Assembly (NCBI RefSeq): GCF_001483755.1 | Contig: NZ_LQBK01000004.1 | Location: 413,889-477,888, forward strand | Length of the DNA stretch: 64,000 nucleotides | Direction of reading: 5' to 3' | Origin: Kocuria rosea subsp. polaris | GTDB taxonomy: Bacteria > Actinomycetota > Actinomycetes > Actinomycetales > Micrococcaceae | Part shown: positions 14,915 through 23,288 of the stretch, one piece after another | How the letters are laid out: each line of letters starts with the position of its first letter | Position numbering within the stretch: position 1 is the first letter of the stretch | Notes under the pieces: generated by a model | Database searches by the model: none | Told to the model about the DNA's origin: nothing | The model's input: only the letters and a program-made list of their open reading frames with translations | Position numbers and translations under genes: made by a program

Positions 14915-17900
14915 TCACCGGTCCTCCCGGTCCTCGACGCGCAGGATGCCCCACATGCCCTGGCCGACCGCCCAACGGAAGGCGCCGCTGCGGTAGGCGT
15001 GGTCCCCGGGGTCCCACCTGGTCTCCGGGGTCATCACCAGGTCCTGGACGAAGCCGGCGCAGATCGCCGTGACCGATCCGGACTCCGGGCTGGAGTTCTT
15101 CTGCTTCCGCACCCACGGCGCGGTGTCCCACGCGAAGTTGTGGGCGGTGAAGGTGTGGTTGCGGGGCTTGTCACCCGCGCACACCAGCCGCCACCAGATC
15201 GGCAGATCGTCGCGGACCTCGATGATCGGGGCCGTGAGGTTGGGCAGCGCCATGGGCCTGTGGTGCGGAGTCAGCGGCGACCGGTAGCTGATCGCCTTCT
15301 GTCCCACGTCGACGGGAGGATCGCTGGGCGAGATGTCCGGCATGGGCAGGTCGACGTCGCCGTTGATGAAGTGGCGCAGCCCGTCCTGCAGGAAGAGCAC
15401 GAGCTCCTGGCCGACGATCTCCCCCTGGCACTTCACGTGCACGTGCGGGCCGACCCACTGCTCCGTGCGCTCGTCGTGGCGGTCGACGGGGACCACGTCG
15501 CGGGGCTCGACGACGACAGCCCCGATCAGGCCGTGGTGCCGGTGGTTGCGGATGTCGGCCATGTCGAAGAGATAGCAGACCTGTCCCGGCCGGGGGCTCT
15601 TCGACTCGTCCGGCTTCCGGTCCGGCTGTGGCGCCAGCAGGTCGTCGACGTACCACCAGTACTCCCGCCAGTTCGGGTCCCTGTGCCCGACCCCATGATC
15701 CGTGCGGTGGACCACGGCTCCGGCCGCGGCCTCGTCGCCGTGGACCACGTGGGCGGTGCCGTCCACGTCGAGGGCGGCCACGGTGCTGTCGTGGTTGAGG
15801 CCCACGTAGGAGCCGTCGTCGCTGACCACGTCGTACAGGAGCAGGCTGGGGTGCAGGGACACGCGGGGGCTCACCGTCCTGCGGTCGGGATAGCCGAGAT
15901 GGTCACGGTGCTCGACCGGCAGGCGCGGCGGGCTCACTTCCGGGCCGAAGTCGGGCAGCTGGGGATCCCGGACGGAGTAGTTCTGTCCCGGAAGATTCTC
16001 CTCGGGCAGCAGCACCTCGTTGATGAGAGTGACCTTGATCCACTCCCCGGGATGGGCGCGCAGGACCAGGGGCTGGCCGGAAGGGTCCACTCCCGCGGCC
16101 CGGAGGTTGCCGGTCTCCCGCCCCTCCCGATCCTTCTCGGGCACGGCGTGCTGGGCCGCTCGGTAGATGAGTCCCCACGGGTCGGTCAGCGCATGGGCGG
16201 CGTATCCGTGCTCGTGGCGCTGGGCGACGACGACGTACTCCCGCACCTCGTCCGCCGACCACTTCCCGTCCGGTCCCCGGTTCGGCCGCCGGCGCCCGAA
16301 CCGGGAAGCCTGCGCGCTGCGGAGCCGTTCCAGGGTTCTTTCGAGCTCCTCCCCGCTGGGTGGCACGACGGGCTGCCTCGGAGCGCTCTCCCCGTGCTCC
16401 TCTGCTCCGTCCGGCTCGGCCCCGGTGACGGGCGGCAGGGGAAGGAGATGGTGGCGGAAGCTGTCGAGAGTGGGGGGCAGGGACCGGATGTGGCCCCAGC
16501 ACCCCAGCCACAGGTCGTCCATGACGGTGAACTGCCACAGGTGGTCGCCGATCCCGTAGGGACTGGCGTCCGCCGGGTCGATGTCCACGGTGAAGGCCTC
16601 GGAGATGCCGATGGTCTGCTGGTTCACCAGTGGCGACCGCCGGTTCTGCCAGTCCTTGCGCCAGCGCATGCCGTTCAGCATGAAGCTGTGCTGCTCCTCG
16701 TGCGACCCCTGCAGGAGCCTGAGGCGCAACCGTTCCCCCGGATAGGTGTAGATCACGGGCGTGTCCGGGTCCCCGCTCGTCTTGGGCGGCACCGGCCAGT
16801 GGGGGGTGCACCCGTCATGGTCCTCGCCGTGCCGCTCGTCCTGTCCGCCGCCCGTTTCCTGCCCGGCCGCGGACATCCACGGATGGTCGAGCGGGCGGGT
16901 GCGGACCCTGGCCTCGTCGAGCGCTCTGTGCTCGGCCTCGGCGTCCGCGAAGACCTGGCGTTCCAGGGCGTCGACATCGGCCGACGAGCGGTTGGAGCTG
17001 AACCACTCGGACGGGTCCTTGCCCCGGTACTCCAGCGGGGCGCAGCGGTAGTTGACGCCCATCACACCGGGGTCGTCGTCGCCGCCGAGCTGGTTCGGCT
17101 CGTTGAGCGGCTCGTCGTCGCGGCCGAGGACCTCCGGTGGCCTGGCCCGGGCGCCCCGCGGGCGGTTCAGGGGTACGAAGTCGCCGAGAGCGAGGCCGGC
17201 CTCACGGAACGACCCTTCGATGCCCGAGTTCCTAGGCCTGCCGTCCCCGTCCGGGCCGCGGGGGACCACGACGGCCTGCGAACCGACCCAGGCCGGGGTC
17301 TTCTGGTCCGGCAGGTACCACCGGGTGCCGTTGGGCTCGGCGACGAGTGCGCCGAACAGGCCCCGCTTCTGCCGGAAGTTGGCGAGCAGGTGGTCGTGGA
17401 AGAAGCACGTCCCGAACTCCTCGTCCACCACCCAGCGGTGCAGGGAGAAGTTGGTTGCCGGATCGCCTCCGTGATCGCGGATCACCTCGGGCGAGCTGGC
17501 CCCCGAGAGGTAGTTCCAGCCGCTGGCGGAGCCGTCCGCTGCGAGGACGTCGAACTTCACGAGGTGCACGTGCAGGCCGCACTCCACCGGGTGCGCGGGA
17601 AGGTCGAAGTGGTCCGGGGGGAAGGACTCCACCGTGTTGTAGAGCCGCAGCTCTACGACGTCGCCGTGGTTGGCCCGCGGGAAGAACGCGTCCACACCGC
17701 TCTCGCCGTCCCCGTCGAGGGGAATCCCCTCCGTGAAGGACACCGGCTCCCCGTCCGGGTCGCCCCGCTCGTCCAGGCGTGCGACCTCGACGTTCCGCAA
17801 CGTGTAGTGGTGGCCCATGGGGTCGTACCAGCCTGCGGAGTTGTAGGTCATCCGGCGGGAACCCATCTCGATGTCGTAGCTGATGACCCTCCTCTCGGGA

Positions 17901-20308
17901 ACCTCCGCCTTGTCGTTCCATCTCCTGGCCATGTCGTCGAGGTCGACGAAGAGGGCGCCCCGCTTCTTCCGCTCCACGCACCCCGGGGCGAAGGCCTTCA
18001 GCTCCTGCGGCGAGTGCTGGGGCATGCGCAGTATGCTGCGGCGCCAGTCCTTGTGGTCGTCCTCAAGGACGGGCGGCGGCGGCGACTTGCGGGGGTACGT
18101 GGCGTCGATGAACCACGGGAAGCCCGGCTGTTCGCGGTCGGAGACCGGAGGCCGGCGTCCTGGCAGCGGCACGAGGGGGGCGCACGGGGTGCCGTCCGGA
18201 TAGGCCAGGTCCCCGGTCACCTCGCGGTCCAGGCTGCGCCACAGCCCCCACATGCCGTGGTGGAAGTGCGGATAGAGGTGGCAGTGCCAGATGATGTCGC
18301 CCACGGCATGCTGGCGGCTGCCGGATCCGTAGAGCGGGTCGATGGTCATGGCGGTCTGAGGCCCGATGGATACGGAGTCCAGCAGCTGGGAACCACGGGG
18401 CTCACCGGGCCTCCACTCGGACGGCTTCGCGGTGTCCTGGGGGACGGCACGCCACTGGTGGACGTGAAGGTGGTAGACGTGGGTCTCCTTGACGCCGGCG
18501 TGGACCAGGCGCACCCGGCAGGGGTCGCCCCGGTAGGCGCGCAGCGTGGGGGTCACGGACTCGCCGAACAGCCAGGCGCTGTGGTGCTGCTCCTCTCCGG
18601 AGACGCGCTCGAGAAAACCCCTCTTGCGCTCCTCGGCGTACGGCTCGAGGTGCGCGACGTCCGGGACGGCGGCACGGTGGTCCTTGGCGACCCAGAACTC
18701 CTCGCCCAGCGTCCTGTCGAGCGTGATCTCGACAGCGGAGTGGTCGATGTCGTCGTCCTCAGCGCGCATCTCGACCCAGGACGTGCCCAGCCGGTGGCGC
18801 TTCCGGAGACGGTAGGGCAGCCGGTTGTGCATGGGTTCCGCCCGGTAGGACAACGGCATCGCCGAGTGGGGAAGCGGGTGCGGGATACCGCTGTGGGTCT
18901 CCGTCTCGTCGTGGAAGAAGACCGTGAACTCGCGGAAGCTGCAGTTGCCGGCGAACTGGTCGGTCCTGTCCTTGTCGTGGTAGAAGTCGACGAAGTTCTC
19001 CTCCCGCCAGGTCCGGCACCGGTTGTCCGGGGAGCAGTGGTGGCGGTGCTCCGCCTCGGGCCCGCCCCAGTGCTCCTTGTGACATGGAGGAGGAGCCGTG
19101 ACGGTCCCTTCCCGAAGCCCGTGCTCCTGCGGCGGCACGACGTCGACATAAAGGCCGTCGCCGTGGTCGGTGTTGTCGAGGCGGCTCCCGGTCTCGGAGT
19201 CGTACCACCGGGCGTGCTCCGGCTCGACGACGAGGGCGGCGAAGAGGCCGTGGTTGTTCGTCCCGCGGTCGGTGCCCCGTACGTCCCCCAGGTCGTTGAT
19301 CGGCCACACGCCCTCGCGAGCGCACGTCCACCGGTAGATCATCCTGTGCCTGTAGGGGACCGTCGTGGGGTCGTTGTCGCCCACGCAGGCACCGTCGCCG
19401 TAACGGACCCCGCTGCCGCTGCTCCCGTCGGGGCGCGTTCCGGCCAGGCCGTCTCCCTGGACGTGCAGCCCGACCTCACGGCCGCGGATGCTGTTCTCGA
19501 AGTGGACCTCCAGCTGTTCACCGCGGCAGGCCCGCAGCACCAGGGGTCGGACCAGAGGGATCGGCCGCAACGGGTTGAACCACGCATAGTCCGGGGCGTC
19601 CTTGCCCCGATGCCAGTTCGCCGGATCATCGTGGTCGTTGCGCAGCAGTCGGGCGATGTCGTCGTCACTCAGCCGGGAGCCGGGACGCTCCAGGCGGTAC
19701 TGCGCCAGCATGGCCGGCCACTCGTCGTTGATCTCCTGCAGCCGGCGCCGGATGCCGGCCTCGGCCGAGTCCAGCTGGGCCGACCAGTCAGCACGCCACT
19801 TCTGCAGCGTGCCGGTGTCGGCGACGAGCCTGGTGATCCGTCCGCCGGTCAGCTCGCGCAGCGCGTGCACCAGTTCGTCGACCGTGGCCCGGTAGTTCTG
19901 CCGGATGGTGAGGTGCTTGGGATGAGGGCGCCGCTCGCGCCGGTCGTGCTCCTCCCGGCCGAACACCTCCTCGTCGCTTCCCCGGTCGTCGAGGAGATAG
20001 CGGACGTCCTCGCCCCCGCTGTCCAAGGGGGTTCCGTCCTCGGTGGACTGCGCCAGGAGCTGTCTCATGCGCAGGTAGCGGGGAATGCCGTCCACCACCG
20101 TCTCCATGAGTTGGGAGTTGCGGTGGATCCTCGGCAGGTACTCGTCGTCCTTGTCCCACTGTTCCTTCGCCCATTTCAGGAGTGGCTCGTACACCCTCAG
20201 CGTGTAGAGCAGGCCGTTGGGATCGTGGTCGCCCTCCACGGAGTAGACGATCGGGAGGGACATGGCGACGACGTCGTAGGTACGGAAAGTGTTGTCGATG
20301 GGTAGCAT
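14915..20308 (-). CDS. Giant multicopper oxidase with permuted copper motifs
   Basis: A 1797-residue protein made of several cupredoxin-like modules. All four canonical multicopper-oxidase motifs are visible, but out of order. Motif III is H610-x-x-H613-x-H615 (HVYHLHVHQW). Motif IV is H675-C676-H677-x3-H681-x4-M686 (HCHLYPHFHHGM). Motif I is H913-x-H915 (GLHVHLV) and motif II is H971-x-H973 (FFHDHLL). Together they give a full type 1 site and a full trinuclear site. Degenerate modules flank this core (residues 250-360, 1185-1275, 1415-1600 and 1690-1797). Residues 1-240 are charged and helical. I see no signal peptide. Size and layout recall MnxG-type Mn(II) oxidases, so oxidation of a metal ion is plausible, but the substrate is unknown. 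GGAGA precedes the ATG; it is the last gene of a four-gene unit. Confidence 0.9.
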   Translation of the reverse strand: MLPIDNTFRTYDVVAMSLPIVYSVEGDHDPNGLLYTLRVYEPLLKWAKEQWDKDDEYLPRIHRNSQLMETVVDGIPRYLRMRQLLAQSTEDGTPLDSGGEDVRYLLDDRGSDEEVFGREEHDRRERRPHPKHLTIRQNYRATVDELVHALRELTGGRITRLVADTGTLQKWRADWSAQLDSAEAGIRRRLQEINDEWPAMLAQYRLERPGSRLSDDDIARLLRNDHDDPANWHRGKDAPDYAWFNPLRPIPLVRPLVLRACRGEQLEVHFENSIRGREVGLHVQGDGLAGTRPDGSSGSGVRYGDGACVGDNDPTTVPYRHRMIYRWTCAREGVWPINDLGDVRGTDRGTNNHGLFAALVVEPEHARWYDSETGSRLDNTDHGDGLYVDVVPPQEHGLREGTVTAPPPCHKEHWGGPEAEHRHHCSPDNRCRTWREENFVDFYHDKDRTDQFAGNCSFREFTVFFHDETETHSGIPHPLPHSAMPLSYRAEPMHNRLPYRLRKRHRLGTSWVEMRAEDDDIDHSAVEITLDRTLGEEFWVAKDHRAAVPDVAHLEPYAEERKRGFLERVSGEEQHHSAWLFGESVTPTLRAYRGDPCRVRLVHAGVKETHVYHLHVHQWRAVPQDTAKPSEWRPGEPRGSQLLDSVSIGPQTAMTIDPLYGSGSRQHAVGDIIWHCHLYPHFHHGMWGLWRSLDREVTGDLAYPDGTPCAPLVPLPGRRPPVSDREQPGFPWFIDATYPRKSPPPPVLEDDHKDWRRSILRMPQHSPQELKAFAPGCVERKKRGALFVDLDDMARRWNDKAEVPERRVISYDIEMGSRRMTYNSAGWYDPMGHHYTLRNVEVARLDERGDPDGEPVSFTEGIPLDGDGESGVDAFFPRANHGDVVELRLYNTVESFPPDHFDLPAHPVECGLHVHLVKFDVLAADGSASGWNYLSGASSPEVIRDHGGDPATNFSLHRWVVDEEFGTCFFHDHLLANFRQKRGLFGALVAEPNGTRWYLPDQKTPAWVGSQAVVVPRGPDGDGRPRNSGIEGSFREAGLALGDFVPLNRPRGARARPPEVLGRDDEPLNEPNQLGGDDDPGVMGVNYRCAPLEYRGKDPSEWFSSNRSSADVDALERQVFADAEAEHRALDEARVRTRPLDHPWMSAAGQETGGGQDERHGEDHDGCTPHWPVPPKTSGDPDTPVIYTYPGERLRLRLLQGSHEEQHSFMLNGMRWRKDWQNRRSPLVNQQTIGISEAFTVDIDPADASPYGIGDHLWQFTVMDDLWLGCWGHIRSLPPTLDSFRHHLLPLPPVTGAEPDGAEEHGESAPRQPVVPPSGEELERTLERLRSAQASRFGRRRPNRGPDGKWSADEVREYVVVAQRHEHGYAAHALTDPWGLIYRAAQHAVPEKDREGRETGNLRAAGVDPSGQPLVLRAHPGEWIKVTLINEVLLPEENLPGQNYSVRDPQLPDFGPEVSPPRLPVEHRDHLGYPDRRTVSPRVSLHPSLLLYDVVSDDGSYVGLNHDSTVAALDVDGTAHVVHGDEAAAGAVVHRTDHGVGHRDPNWREYWWYVDDLLAPQPDRKPDESKSPRPGQVCYLFDMADIRNHRHHGLIGAVVVEPRDVVPVDRHDERTEQWVGPHVHVKCQGEIVGQELVLFLQDGLRHFINGDVDLPMPDISPSDPPVDVGQKAISYRSPLTPHHRPMALPNLTAPIIEVRDDLPIWWRLVCAGDKPRNHTFTAHNFAWDTAPWVRKQKNSSPESGSVTAICAGFVQDLVMTPETRWDPGDHAYRSGAFRWAVGQGMWGILRVEDREDR

Positions 20309-20347: not shown

Positions 20348-21217
20348 CTACAGCAATGGGATGGCGGGAGCCGCAGCGGCCAGCGCTGTGACGGCACCGA
20401 GGACGACGAGCACGAGCCCGGACGGCCGCACGAGGCGGTGCCCCCAGGGCACGAGGCGTTCGGCGGCCATGACCAGGGCCAGAGCCACCATGACGGGAAG
20501 GGCGGCCGTGCCGACCGCGAAACAGATCAGCATGAGCGCCCAGCAGCAGCCGATGCAGGACAGGGCGTAGGCGCCGCTCAGCGCCACCGTCTCCGTCCCC
20601 GGCGAGCGCCGCCCCTGCCAGTGGGCCAGCACGAAACTGCGAGGGCTGCGGCACCCGCGCAGGCAGAGATCCTTCAGTGGTGTGAACTGATAGACGCCGG
20701 CCAGCACGAGCACCCCCGCCGTCACCCACCGGGGGTCCGCGCCCGGCCAGCTGTGCTCGGCCAGCGCCCGGACGCCGAGGTCCCCGGCGACGACGGCTGT
20801 TCCGACGACCGTCCACGCGCCGACGAACGCCATGGCGCCGAGCACGGTCAGCCGCCACGGGTCGGGCTGCCGGGACACGAGCCGCCGGAGAGTCTGCAGC
20901 AGGGGCAGAGCCGGGGGCAGCATCATGGCGACCACCATCAGTGCCCATCCGCCTATGGCGACCATTCCGCCGACCAGCGCGGGCGGAGGAGTCACGGCTG
21001 TGTTCCCGTGCCGCGCGTGGGGGCTGTCGGCCGCGTGGGAGGCTCCCGCGCTGTCGGCGAGAACATGCTCCGCCCCGTGGCCGACCATGTCATGGACGAG
21101 GAACAGCAGGCCCCAGGACGCCGCCGCCACGACGAGCACGCCCAGTGCCACGAGCTCCCGATCGATGCTGCGGTGGCGGGCAGCTGCGCCAGGAGAGACG
21201 GAGGAGGTGGCAGCCAC
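20348..21217 (-). CDS. DUF2182 integral membrane protein
   Basis: A 289-residue membrane protein matching DUF2182, a family of putative metal-binding membrane proteins. Hallmarks seen: WALMVVAMMLPPALPLL, GVYQFTPLKDLCLRGCRSPR and SCIGCCWALMLICFAVG, with Met and Cys lined along membrane helices. Residues 46-71 form a His-containing loop (HDMVGHGAEH, HARHGN). About six to seven membrane segments are visible. The start is a GTG at 21217, two bases after the DUF1326 stop, so the two are translationally coupled. DUF2182 and DUF1326 are known to co-occur, with no established biochemical role that I know of. Delivery or loading of metal for the downstream oxidase is inference. Confidence 0.88.
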   Translation of the reverse strand: MAATSSVSPGAAARHRSIDRELVALGVLVVAAASWGLLFLVHDMVGHGAEHVLADSAGASHAADSPHARHGNTAVTPPPALVGGMVAIGGWALMVVAMMLPPALPLLQTLRRLVSRQPDPWRLTVLGAMAFVGAWTVVGTAVVAGDLGVRALAEHSWPGADPRWVTAGVLVLAGVYQFTPLKDLCLRGCRSPRSFVLAHWQGRRSPGTETVALSGAYALSCIGCCWALMLICFAVGTAALPVMVALALVMAAERLVPWGHRLVRPSGLVLVVLGAVTALAAAAPAIPLL

Positions 21218-21219
21218 GC

Positions 21220-21969
21220 CTACCGTCCTGCGGTGGTGTCAGCGTCGGCTGCTCCCGCCGCGGCCGGCTGGTCGGCGGAGTGGTCGTAGTGGTCGTAGTG
21301 GAAGGCCCCGCGCATCCCGGACCGGCCGGTGACCTCGAGGTTTCCTCCGGGCAGTGCGCCGACGTTGACGACGAGACGTTCGCCGTCCTGCGCCTCGACC
21401 GGTCCGGAGGCGCTCAGCTCGTAGGAGATGGCGGTGTGCTCGAGGATGAGGGGCTTCTTGTTCCCGCGTTGGGCGTCGAAGATCTTGGGACTCCCCTTGG
21501 CCTCGACGAACGCGGTCCCGGACGCGTCTCCGGAGGGACGGACCGTTACCGTCCAATCACTCTCTTCGGGCGGACTGAGCGAGATGCTCGCACGGCAGTC
21601 ACCCACCACGGTGCCGTTCACCTGGGCGAGATCGCTCAACGGGCCGCCGAAGCGGCCGCTGAAGAGATCGACCAGAGCACGGTACTGCTTGGTCGTGTCC
21701 GCAGAGGTCCTCCCTTCAGCGGGGACGTCGATGTAGAGCATCGTGGTGGTCCTGTTGGTGTCGCGGCGGTTGCCCCCGTGGGTGGCGACGCTCACCACCG
21801 TGCAGCCCCCCACCGGGATGCCGTCCACGACGGCGGTGTCGCCCTCGTCGATCTGCCAGGCGATGAACCCGGTGCAGTGGCCTCCCACCGGGTCGTCGTC
21901 GACCCAGCAGGGGCAGATGACGGTGCAGTCGCAGGCTTCGAGGAACTGGCCAGCCAGTGTGTAGTCCAT
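21220..21969 (-). CDS. DUF1326 Cys-motif protein
   Basis: A 249-residue protein of the DUF1326 family. The N-terminus bears the family's dense cysteine motif ACDCTVICPCWVDDDP followed by GGHCTGFIAW, giving C-x-C-x4-C-x-C and a further Cys, very suited to a soft metal ion. The rest is beta-rich without further Cys apart from VGGCTVV and GDCRASISL. There is no signal peptide. AAGGGAA precedes the ATG at 21969. It is followed after two bases by the DUF2182 gene. Function is unknown; a soluble metal-binding partner of the membrane protein is the natural guess. Confidence 0.87.
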   Translation of the reverse strand: MDYTLAGQFLEACDCTVICPCWVDDDPVGGHCTGFIAWQIDEGDTAVVDGIPVGGCTVVSVATHGGNRRDTNRTTTMLYIDVPAEGRTSADTTKQYRALVDLFSGRFGGPLSDLAQVNGTVVGDCRASISLSPPEESDWTVTVRPSGDASGTAFVEAKGSPKIFDAQRGNKKPLILEHTAISYELSASGPVEAQDGERLVVNVGALPGGNLEVTGRSGMRGAFHYDHYDHSADQPAAAGAADADTTAGR

Positions 21970-22029: not shown

Positions 22030-23226
22030 TCAGCCGACAATCCTGACGGTGCGGGTGCTCGAACCGCCCGCGGCGGATTCGACGGTGATGACCGGAGGCG
22101 GCGCGTCGACGCCGGACAGCACGCCGACAGGGCCGGACAAGCCGCCGCGGCCGGACACGGTGAGCGTCGGCGGGCTCTGCTGGTCGCTCGAGGCGGCCGC
22201 CACGGTGAGCGTCTGCGTGGCGGCGTCGTAGTCGGCCTGGGTGATCTCCACGGCGTCGACGACGTCGGCGGTCGCAGGCAGGGGGAGGGGATCGGTCAGG
22301 TTGGTCACGGTCACCCGTGCGGGCACGGTGGTCCCGACATCGGCCCGGGCGACGTAGTTGCGGGTCGCCCCACCCTGCATGGAGGTGTCGGAAAGGCCGG
22401 GCGCCGTGATCAGCAACTGCTGGCCCGGGACCGATCGGGCGAACACGTCCACGACTGCGTCGCCCGCGGCGGTGCGGCTGTAGACGGCCCGGGGGACGTC
22501 GGCCCCGTTCACGGTGGCGACCCGTCCCTGGAGGACGAACCGGTCGGTGTAGACCTTGTCCGGGTTCGTGGGGTCGTTCGGGTCCGGCTCACCCCCGGCG
22601 GAAGCGACTCCGGGTCCTTCGACGAGGGCGAAGTTCGTGCCGAGCGGGCTGCCCGTGACGGTGTGCTCCGTGGCTCCGTCCCCGACATGGGTCGCGGGAA
22701 GCACGGGGTCGGCCGTCCACCGCAGGAAGGGGGCGATGGAGGAGTCCAGCGCGCCGGTGAAATCCAGGGGAGTGAGCCCGATGTCCTCGGTGGCGGTCAC
22801 GCGTCCCCGGTCGTCGGTCATCGCCTCGACCGTGCCGTAGGGGTGGGTGAGCGTGTACGTCGTGTCCGGTAAGCCGTCGCGGACCCGGAATCGGACCCTG
22901 CCGAAGACGATCTGCTGACCGTCGGTCACGCCCTCGGTGGTGAACGTCGCCTCGAGTGCAAGGACGACCCGGATCCGGGCCGTGCGGGCTCCGGCACCGG
23001 CCTCGAGCTCCGTCTCGGCCAGCAGGTAGAAGGCTTCTGCGGGGAACGCGCCGACGTCGCGCAGCGGTCCGCTCTCCTCCGGATCGATGACGACCGGCGC
23101 GAAGTCGTCCCCGGGCGCCCAGACCAGTTCGAGTCGGAGTCCTGTGGAATCCTCGTACCAGAACGGAAAACCGGTCCTCGGATCGATAGGACCTACTTCT
23201 GCGAGACGTTCGGTGTGCTGCGGCAT
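22030..23226 (-). CDS. Unrecognised beta-rich protein, first gene of the oxidase operon
   Basis: A 398-residue protein from the ATG at 23226, supported by GGAGG seven bases upstream; an in-frame start at 23259 lacks such a site. It contains no cysteine, no signal peptide and no membrane segment. The N-terminal 60 residues (TGFPFWYEDSTGLRLELVWAP) lead into a region of beta-strand character. Residues from about 270 look like Ig/IPT-type repeats (VPARVTVTNLTDPLPLPATA, TLTVSGRGGLSGPVGVLSG). I do not recognise the family. It is the promoter-proximal gene of the unit ending in the giant multicopper oxidase, so a scaffold or partner protein is possible. Confidence 0.75.
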   Translation of the reverse strand: MPQHTERLAEVGPIDPRTGFPFWYEDSTGLRLELVWAPGDDFAPVVIDPEESGPLRDVGAFPAEAFYLLAETELEAGAGARTARIRVVLALEATFTTEGVTDGQQIVFGRVRFRVRDGLPDTTYTLTHPYGTVEAMTDDRGRVTATEDIGLTPLDFTGALDSSIAPFLRWTADPVLPATHVGDGATEHTVTGSPLGTNFALVEGPGVASAGGEPDPNDPTNPDKVYTDRFVLQGRVATVNGADVPRAVYSRTAAGDAVVDVFARSVPGQQLLITAPGLSDTSMQGGATRNYVARADVGTTVPARVTVTNLTDPLPLPATADVVDAVEITQADYDAATQTLTVAAASSDQQSPPTLTVSGRGGLSGPVGVLSGVDAPPPVITVESAAGGSSTRTVRIVG

Positions 23227-23288
23227 GGCAATCCTCCGGGCCCGAGCGAAAGAATTCACAACAAGCTGATGCGGATTAATGTAGGCGC

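Follow-up and report, generated by a model that had tools for sequence, protein, structure and literature searches.

The window, a 64,000-nucleotide stretch of the genome of Kocuria rosea subsp. polaris, carries a gene for a giant oxidase that belongs to a distinct clade within the MnxG-like six-domain multicopper oxidases; the clade, a helical insert in domain 1 and a gene cassette upstream are what is new. Our best explanation, with a probability of about 0.55, is that the protein is an MnxG-like metal oxidase, most likely of Mn(II), that is synthesized in the cytosol and receives its copper through the cassette encoded beside it. The features concerned are listed below.

14915–20308, minus strand: MnxG-like six-domain multicopper oxidase, 1797 aa (ORF, Pfam, MnxG alignment and tree)
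17390–17398, minus strand: H971-D-H973 of domain 3, trinuclear ligands by alignment
17564–17572, minus strand: H913-x-H915 of domain 3, trinuclear ligands by alignment
18251–18286, minus strand: H675-C676-H677...H681....M686 of domain 2, type 1 and trinuclear ligands by alignment
18464–18481, minus strand: H610 (type 1) and H613 and H615 (trinuclear) of domain 2, by alignment
19592–20197, minus strand: helical insert in domain 1, residues 38–239 (MnxG alignment and model)
20348–21217, minus strand: relative of the membrane copper chaperone PpoB2 (DUF2182; Pfam PF09948, 7.4e-50)
21220–21969, minus strand: DUF1326 protein (Pfam PF07040, 2.9e-24)
22030–23226, minus strand: conserved third partner protein (start placed by alignment, inside the longest ORF, which starts at 23259)

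The oxidase gene (G000:C4:428806-434196 in its assembly) runs from ATG to stop with no internal stop codon. A preliminary description of this DNA had listed a full set of multicopper-oxidase ligands, and every residue that it named has the claimed letter: all 12 (H610, H613, H615, H675, C676, H677, H681, M686, H913, H915, H971, and H973) were identical in the 31 sequences of an alignment composed of the window protein and 30 full-length homologues from 35 loci, with L019, L031, L034, L039, and L040 left out as partial or frame-broken. The great size and the degenerate cupredoxin modules on both flanks, also claimed there, proved real. Two Pfam domains scored over their cut-offs, Cu-oxidase_2, which is usually C-terminal, at residues 586–688, and Cu-oxidase_3, which is usually N-terminal, at residues 957–992. 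The possibility of a frameshift that had merged two separate genes is disfavored, because the 30 full-length homologues are single ORFs with the same layout in three phyla. The oxidase is a real, intact, and well-conserved protein.

The motif order III-IV-I-II, in which the preliminary description saw a novelty, is present, and the order of the Pfam domains is inverted. However, most of the novelty is removed because MnxG of Bacillus (PDB 9bxa) has the same motif order in the alignment; the tentative suggestion of an unusual site order in MnxG was right, and the available parts of two reports agree with it (PMC3600357; PMC3039467). In the first of these, every bacterial six-domain oxidase analyzed has its trinuclear site in domains 2 and 3, and the homologues listed span 1217–2681 aa; in the second, the Bacillus mnxG primers match HCHL (region D) and then, downstream, HQQH (region B), which is the same order. 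Thus, the site order and the giant size are already in print. A permutation new to this protein is ruled out, since MnxG shares the order.

Three odd-even cupredoxin pairs (1-2, 3-4, and 5-6) are visible as sequence repeats. The odd domains end with GLFAALVVEP (354–363), GLFGALVAEP (983–992), and GLIGAVVVEP (1593–1602), and the even domains with GMWGLWR (685–691), GCWGHIR (1269–1275), and GMWGILR (1784–1790). The copper ligands are placed at the even-odd junction 2|3, and the one complete type 1 set is in domain 2. Judged from its sequence, the protein would thus belong to the MnxG-like six-domain oxidases, in which the trinuclear ligands are split between domains 2 and 3 and one type 1 site lies in domain 2, and not to the laccases, which have the canonical order and two to three cupredoxin domains. 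Ceruloplasmin and hephaestin likewise have six cupredoxin domains, but the account of ceruloplasmin in the available part of PMC3600357 places its trinuclear site at 6|1 and gives it three type 1 sites. The familiar motif order arises because that site joins domains 1 and 6, and no permutation is needed here because the active cluster of the three odd-even pairs lies at 2|3 rather than 6|1. If a laccase had undergone a true circular permutation, or if two genes had merged, the inverted linear order of the two Pfam domains would be explained, but we consider either event most improbable in view of the visible repeats, the 30 single ORFs, and the identical order in MnxG and in the six-domain oxidases described in part in PMC3600357.

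The sole sequence match in the PDB was 9bxa_A (E 1.7e-122), whose library title is "Structure of Mnx H340A complex from Bacillus sp. PL-12"; no publication on this entry was among the matches listed, and the word MnxG was absent among the matches listed for MnxG with actinobacterial names. The similarity spans residues 9–1792, with gaps, and hence most of the length. The ligand motifs are nearly identical and follow in the same order (query/MnxG: HVYHLHVHQW/HVFHYHVHQW, GLHVHLVKFD/GFHIHFVKFD, and FFHDHLLAN/FFHDHLFAN), and in the HCH region HCHLYPHFHHGM aligns with HCHLYPAFGIGM, in which the A at MnxG 340 is the mutated His. The N-terminus is also homologous and lacks a signal peptide in both proteins, whereas MnxG has 1227 aa compared with 1797 aa here and no counterpart of the helical insert. 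The NCBIfam model of the MnxG equivalog (NF041487, 1894 positions) shares the giant size and recognizable similarity, but the score was far below its cut-off (175 bits versus 3100; E 1.2e-51). Among 13 genomes (the window's own and relatives), only the window's genome matched this model, below the cut-off, a search that says little because none of 14 control genomes matched.

Two structure models were compared with known folds, one of residues 1–1110 and one of residues 598–1797, in which the cut at 598 damages domain 2. The top Foldseek match of both was 9bxa (5.9e-33 and 4.7e-58, respectively). In VIA-align, 9bxa was first for residues 1–1110 (Z 24.1, rmsd 3.7, 575 aligned) and tenth for residues 598–1797 (Z 21.2, 720 aligned), where a snake-venom factor V-like chain (Z 23.3) and ceruloplasmin (Z 22.5) ranked above it, although 9bxa had more aligned residues and a higher identity than the other rows shown. 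Residues 807–1796 aligned with ceruloplasmin (2j5w) from its residue 1 (Z 22.5, rmsd 4.5, 553 aligned; the repeats permit other registers), which agrees with the account of the motif order as 2|3 versus 6|1. The ten-residue blocks that hold the ligands have a pLDDT of 33–58, and on the geometry of a copper cluster the models are evidence neither for nor against. From the one-to-one alignment with MnxG, we infer that the four motifs form one cluster.

A protein scan of genome contigs yielded the 35 loci, which are distributed in Actinomycetota, Pseudomonadota, Cyanobacteriota, and Gemmatimonadota; from Gemmatimonadota there is a single MAG, with two of its contigs (L034 and L040). The carriers include Sphingomonas, Novosphingobium, cyanobacteria, Actinoplanes, Actinomycetospora, and Kineosporia. 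A tree was built from 48 rows and 572 columns by a quick method with SH-aLRT as the only support; some distant rows drew warnings about long branches and composition. In it, the window protein and 27 loci formed a single 28-row branch (SH-aLRT 100). This clade, an oxidase of Priestia, and six further rows made up a 35-row group with a support of 95. The gene is rare: within the genus, only the window's own genome matched (1 of 27); among 99 genomes (its own and relatives) there was one further match, a distant homologue in G077; and in a sample of the phylum, 10 of 396 genomes matched, including its own, the other nine being distant. In the phylum of locus L020, 3 of 398 genomes matched, one of them that of L020 itself. 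As for a phage origin, no viral contig matched, by patterns that reach close relatives only, and there was no PHROG match.

The first feature that sets the clade apart is the insert. Residues 9–45 align with MnxG 3–39, and the alignment resumes at residue 240 of the query and 40 of MnxG. In the model, strands at 8–21 and 28–37 precede helices at 38–90, 103–107, 112–124, 130–154, 165–195, 197–207, 215–222, and 229–237; the ten-residue blocks of 31–240 have a pLDDT of 72–95, except for 51–58 in the blocks at 91–100 and 111–130. Because the strands and the MnxG match stand before them, the helices interrupt domain 1 as an insert. The preliminary description, which gave a 240-residue helical N-terminus, needs correction in this respect. 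Between query residues 45 and 241, the window protein has 195 residues and the 28 clade rows have 148–243, compared with 3–40 in the aligned rows outside the clade (L037, L042, and L043). All 28 rows share L58, H62, L150, N224, and D225. A sequence search of the insert against the PDB gave nothing usable (best E-value 0.14).

The protein has no signal peptide, as the preliminary description had noticed. The frame is open for just 13 codons before the ATG (1810 versus 1797 codons) and the PpoB2 gene ends 39 nt upstream, so that no signal peptide can have been missed. Mean hydropathy over 19 residues peaks at 1.02, too low for a membrane helix. Given the absence of both a signal peptide and a membrane-helix stretch, the oxidase likely folds in the cytosol; its export by another route is possible. 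A cytosolic multicopper oxidase is unusual, which counts against our best explanation. The members of the 35-row group with an unbroken N-terminus start, as the window protein does, near a conserved GDHDPNG (L049 is frame-broken there), whereas several members outside the group (L087, L054, L097, and others) have, by eye, Sec-, Tat- or membrane-helix-like N-termini. L087 and L088 are both long relatives that belong to the same phylum as L020 and branch elsewhere in the tree; their N-termini are signal-like.

The second feature is the cassette, which the preliminary description missed along with the nature of the insert, although it was sound on the order, size, flanking modules, and lack of a signal peptide. 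The protein next to the oxidase matched PF09948 with 169.9 bits (cut-off 28.7); AMMLPxAL, CxxxC, and CxGCC are conserved in an alignment of 15 PpoB2 sequences, and several hydrophobic stretches are long enough for membrane helices. The DUF1326 proteins, also aligned as 15 sequences, conserve CDCxxxCPCW and a later HC, and had no sequence relative in the PDB at E-values up to 1. In the third partner, the N-terminal ∼240 aa are conserved and some homologues add a PKD/Ig-like domain; Pfam PKD was found in three of five copies scanned but not in the window copy, and the alignment matches the PDB chiefly through the PKD part. The names DUF1326 and DUF2182 did not occur in the open-licence PMC library.

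When the single window proteins were used as phmmer queries, by which diverged partners can be missed, PpoB2 was found at 27 of the 35 loci, DUF1326 at 26, and the third partner at 20. Within the 28-row clade, window included, PpoB2 lies upstream in 27 rows, DUF1326 in 26, and the third partner in 20. Eight loci are without PpoB2. Four of them (L019, L031, L040, and L043) are at or near contig edges and, like L015, uninformative on partners off the contig; in the other four (L023, L037, L039, and L042), it is absent despite 4.6 to 10 kb of upstream sequence. The whole cassette is absent in L023 (4.6 kb upstream), which keeps the insert, and in the frame-broken L039 (8.9 kb upstream). None of 20 loci of distant MnxG-like genes had PpoB2 or DUF1326, a set that includes the near-duplicate or duplicate pairs L051/L052 and L053/L094, the almost flankless L092, and others near contig ends. 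The DUF1326 and PpoB2 genes overlap by 4 nt in 13 of the 25 loci measured, and the gap between PpoB2 and the oxidase is ≤ 71 nt in 23 of 25 (155 nt in L011 and 316 nt in L026), with the start codons of homologues chosen by script and some of them wrong (e.g., PpoB2 of L011). In plasmids, 43 records had partial matches to PpoB2. Separately, one distant MnxG-like gene without PpoB2 or DUF1326 has a match to the third partner ∼3.5 kb away (L097, 14174–14999; E 7.3e-10).

A comparable arrangement is the PpoB1-PpoB2 operon of Marinomonas mediterranea, in which a copper-transfer protein is encoded beside its copper oxidase. According to the available part of the report, PpoB2 is involved in copper transfer to tyrosinase PpoB1 and does not serve the laccase PpoA, and DUF1326 is unmentioned there (PMC2855505). 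A role for PpoB2 with a multicopper oxidase is an extrapolation for this reason. The partners also differ from those of MnxG, which works with MnxE and MnxF and whose activity is described, in the part of the source available, as needing two accessory proteins without known homologues (PMC5622069). No MnxE or MnxF was recognized among the genes upstream of the oxidase, and a search of the whole of the window's own genome with two small Priestia proteins, whose assignment as MnxE/MnxF is by position only, gave no match and had no positive control.

The scheme of electron transfer that follows is established multicopper-oxidase chemistry. The type 1 copper of domain 2 would take electrons singly from the substrate and pass them via C676/H675/H677 to the trinuclear cluster between domains 2 and 3, where O2 would be reduced to water in the presumed turnover. 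The oxidase is synthesized without a signal peptide; it may receive its copper from the PpoB2-type protein of the membrane and from the DUF1326 protein, which is rich in Cys, and the clade-specific insert may be the docking site, as their co-occurrence suggests. The co-occurrence of insert and cassette is not independent evidence of contact, because both mark the same clade.

By relation to MnxG, our best guess for the substrate is Mn(II). The same fold might act physiologically on Cu(I), Fe(II), or an organic compound with no role for Mn, a reading to which we give clearly less, although still considerable, weight. Other multicopper oxidases with such ligand sets oxidize these substrates, the partners are relatives of copper-handling proteins, and some distant MnxG-like genes adjoin genes for copper resistance or heavy-metal efflux. 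On the other hand, the only sequence relative in the PDB is a Mn oxidase, and His and Glu residues outside the four-copper set (H575, H576, H1203, E1204, E1205, and H1207) also occur in the Priestia relative. It is also conceivable, but improbable, that turnover has been lost and that the protein is a structural or metal-binding component inside the cell or associated with spores. Many cassette carriers (Actinoplanes, Actinomycetospora, and Kineosporia) are sporulating actinomycetes, and the HCH segment is missing from one relative outside the clade, a copy on a Pseudonocardia plasmid; for Bacillus, the available part of PMC5622069 states that it is spores that oxidize Mn. The 12 invariant ligands argue against such a loss, as do carriers such as Sphingomonas, Novosphingobium, cyanobacteria, and the Gemmatimonadota MAG.

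H1203, E1204, E1205, and H1207 of domain 4, and H1486, H1589, H1591, and H1592 of domain 5, are conserved in all 34 aligned sequences, which include Priestia, or in 33 of them. They lie at junction 4|5, the counterpart of the active junction 2|3, and may form a further metal site. A wider reading, doubtful as a whole, would be that the third partner, DUF1326, PpoB2, and the giant oxidase form a cassette spread horizontally over four phyla, in which a membrane chaperone docks on the helical bundle of a cytosolic metal oxidase and supplies its copper in place of MnxE/MnxF, with the 4|5 cluster as a second metal site, e.g., for the substrate. Among the sequence relatives of this oxidase, MnxG alone has a solved structure, and a related clade with other, recognizable partners would be a second, perhaps easier system for the copper loading and the substrate of giant oxidases. 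For DUF1326 and the third partner, the cassette would also suggest a role that can be tested.

Some of the relatives lie on plasmids. A Priestia megaterium plasmid (L050, 3183–7510) carries an apparent Bacillus-type mnx operon, in which small genes, identified by position only, precede the oxidase. In Pseudonocardia plasmids (L051 and also L052), an MnxG-like gene keeps HLHFH and HPH, and in an alignment of 34 rows this copy is without H675, C676, H677, M686, and H973; the protein is probably inactive, because the HCH segment with the type 1 Cys is lost. In a Rubrobacter marinus plasmid (L053, 4786–10854), an MnxG-like gene has a second gene directly behind it whose matches lie in C-terminal parts of the window protein; the pair looks like a single protein that has been divided.
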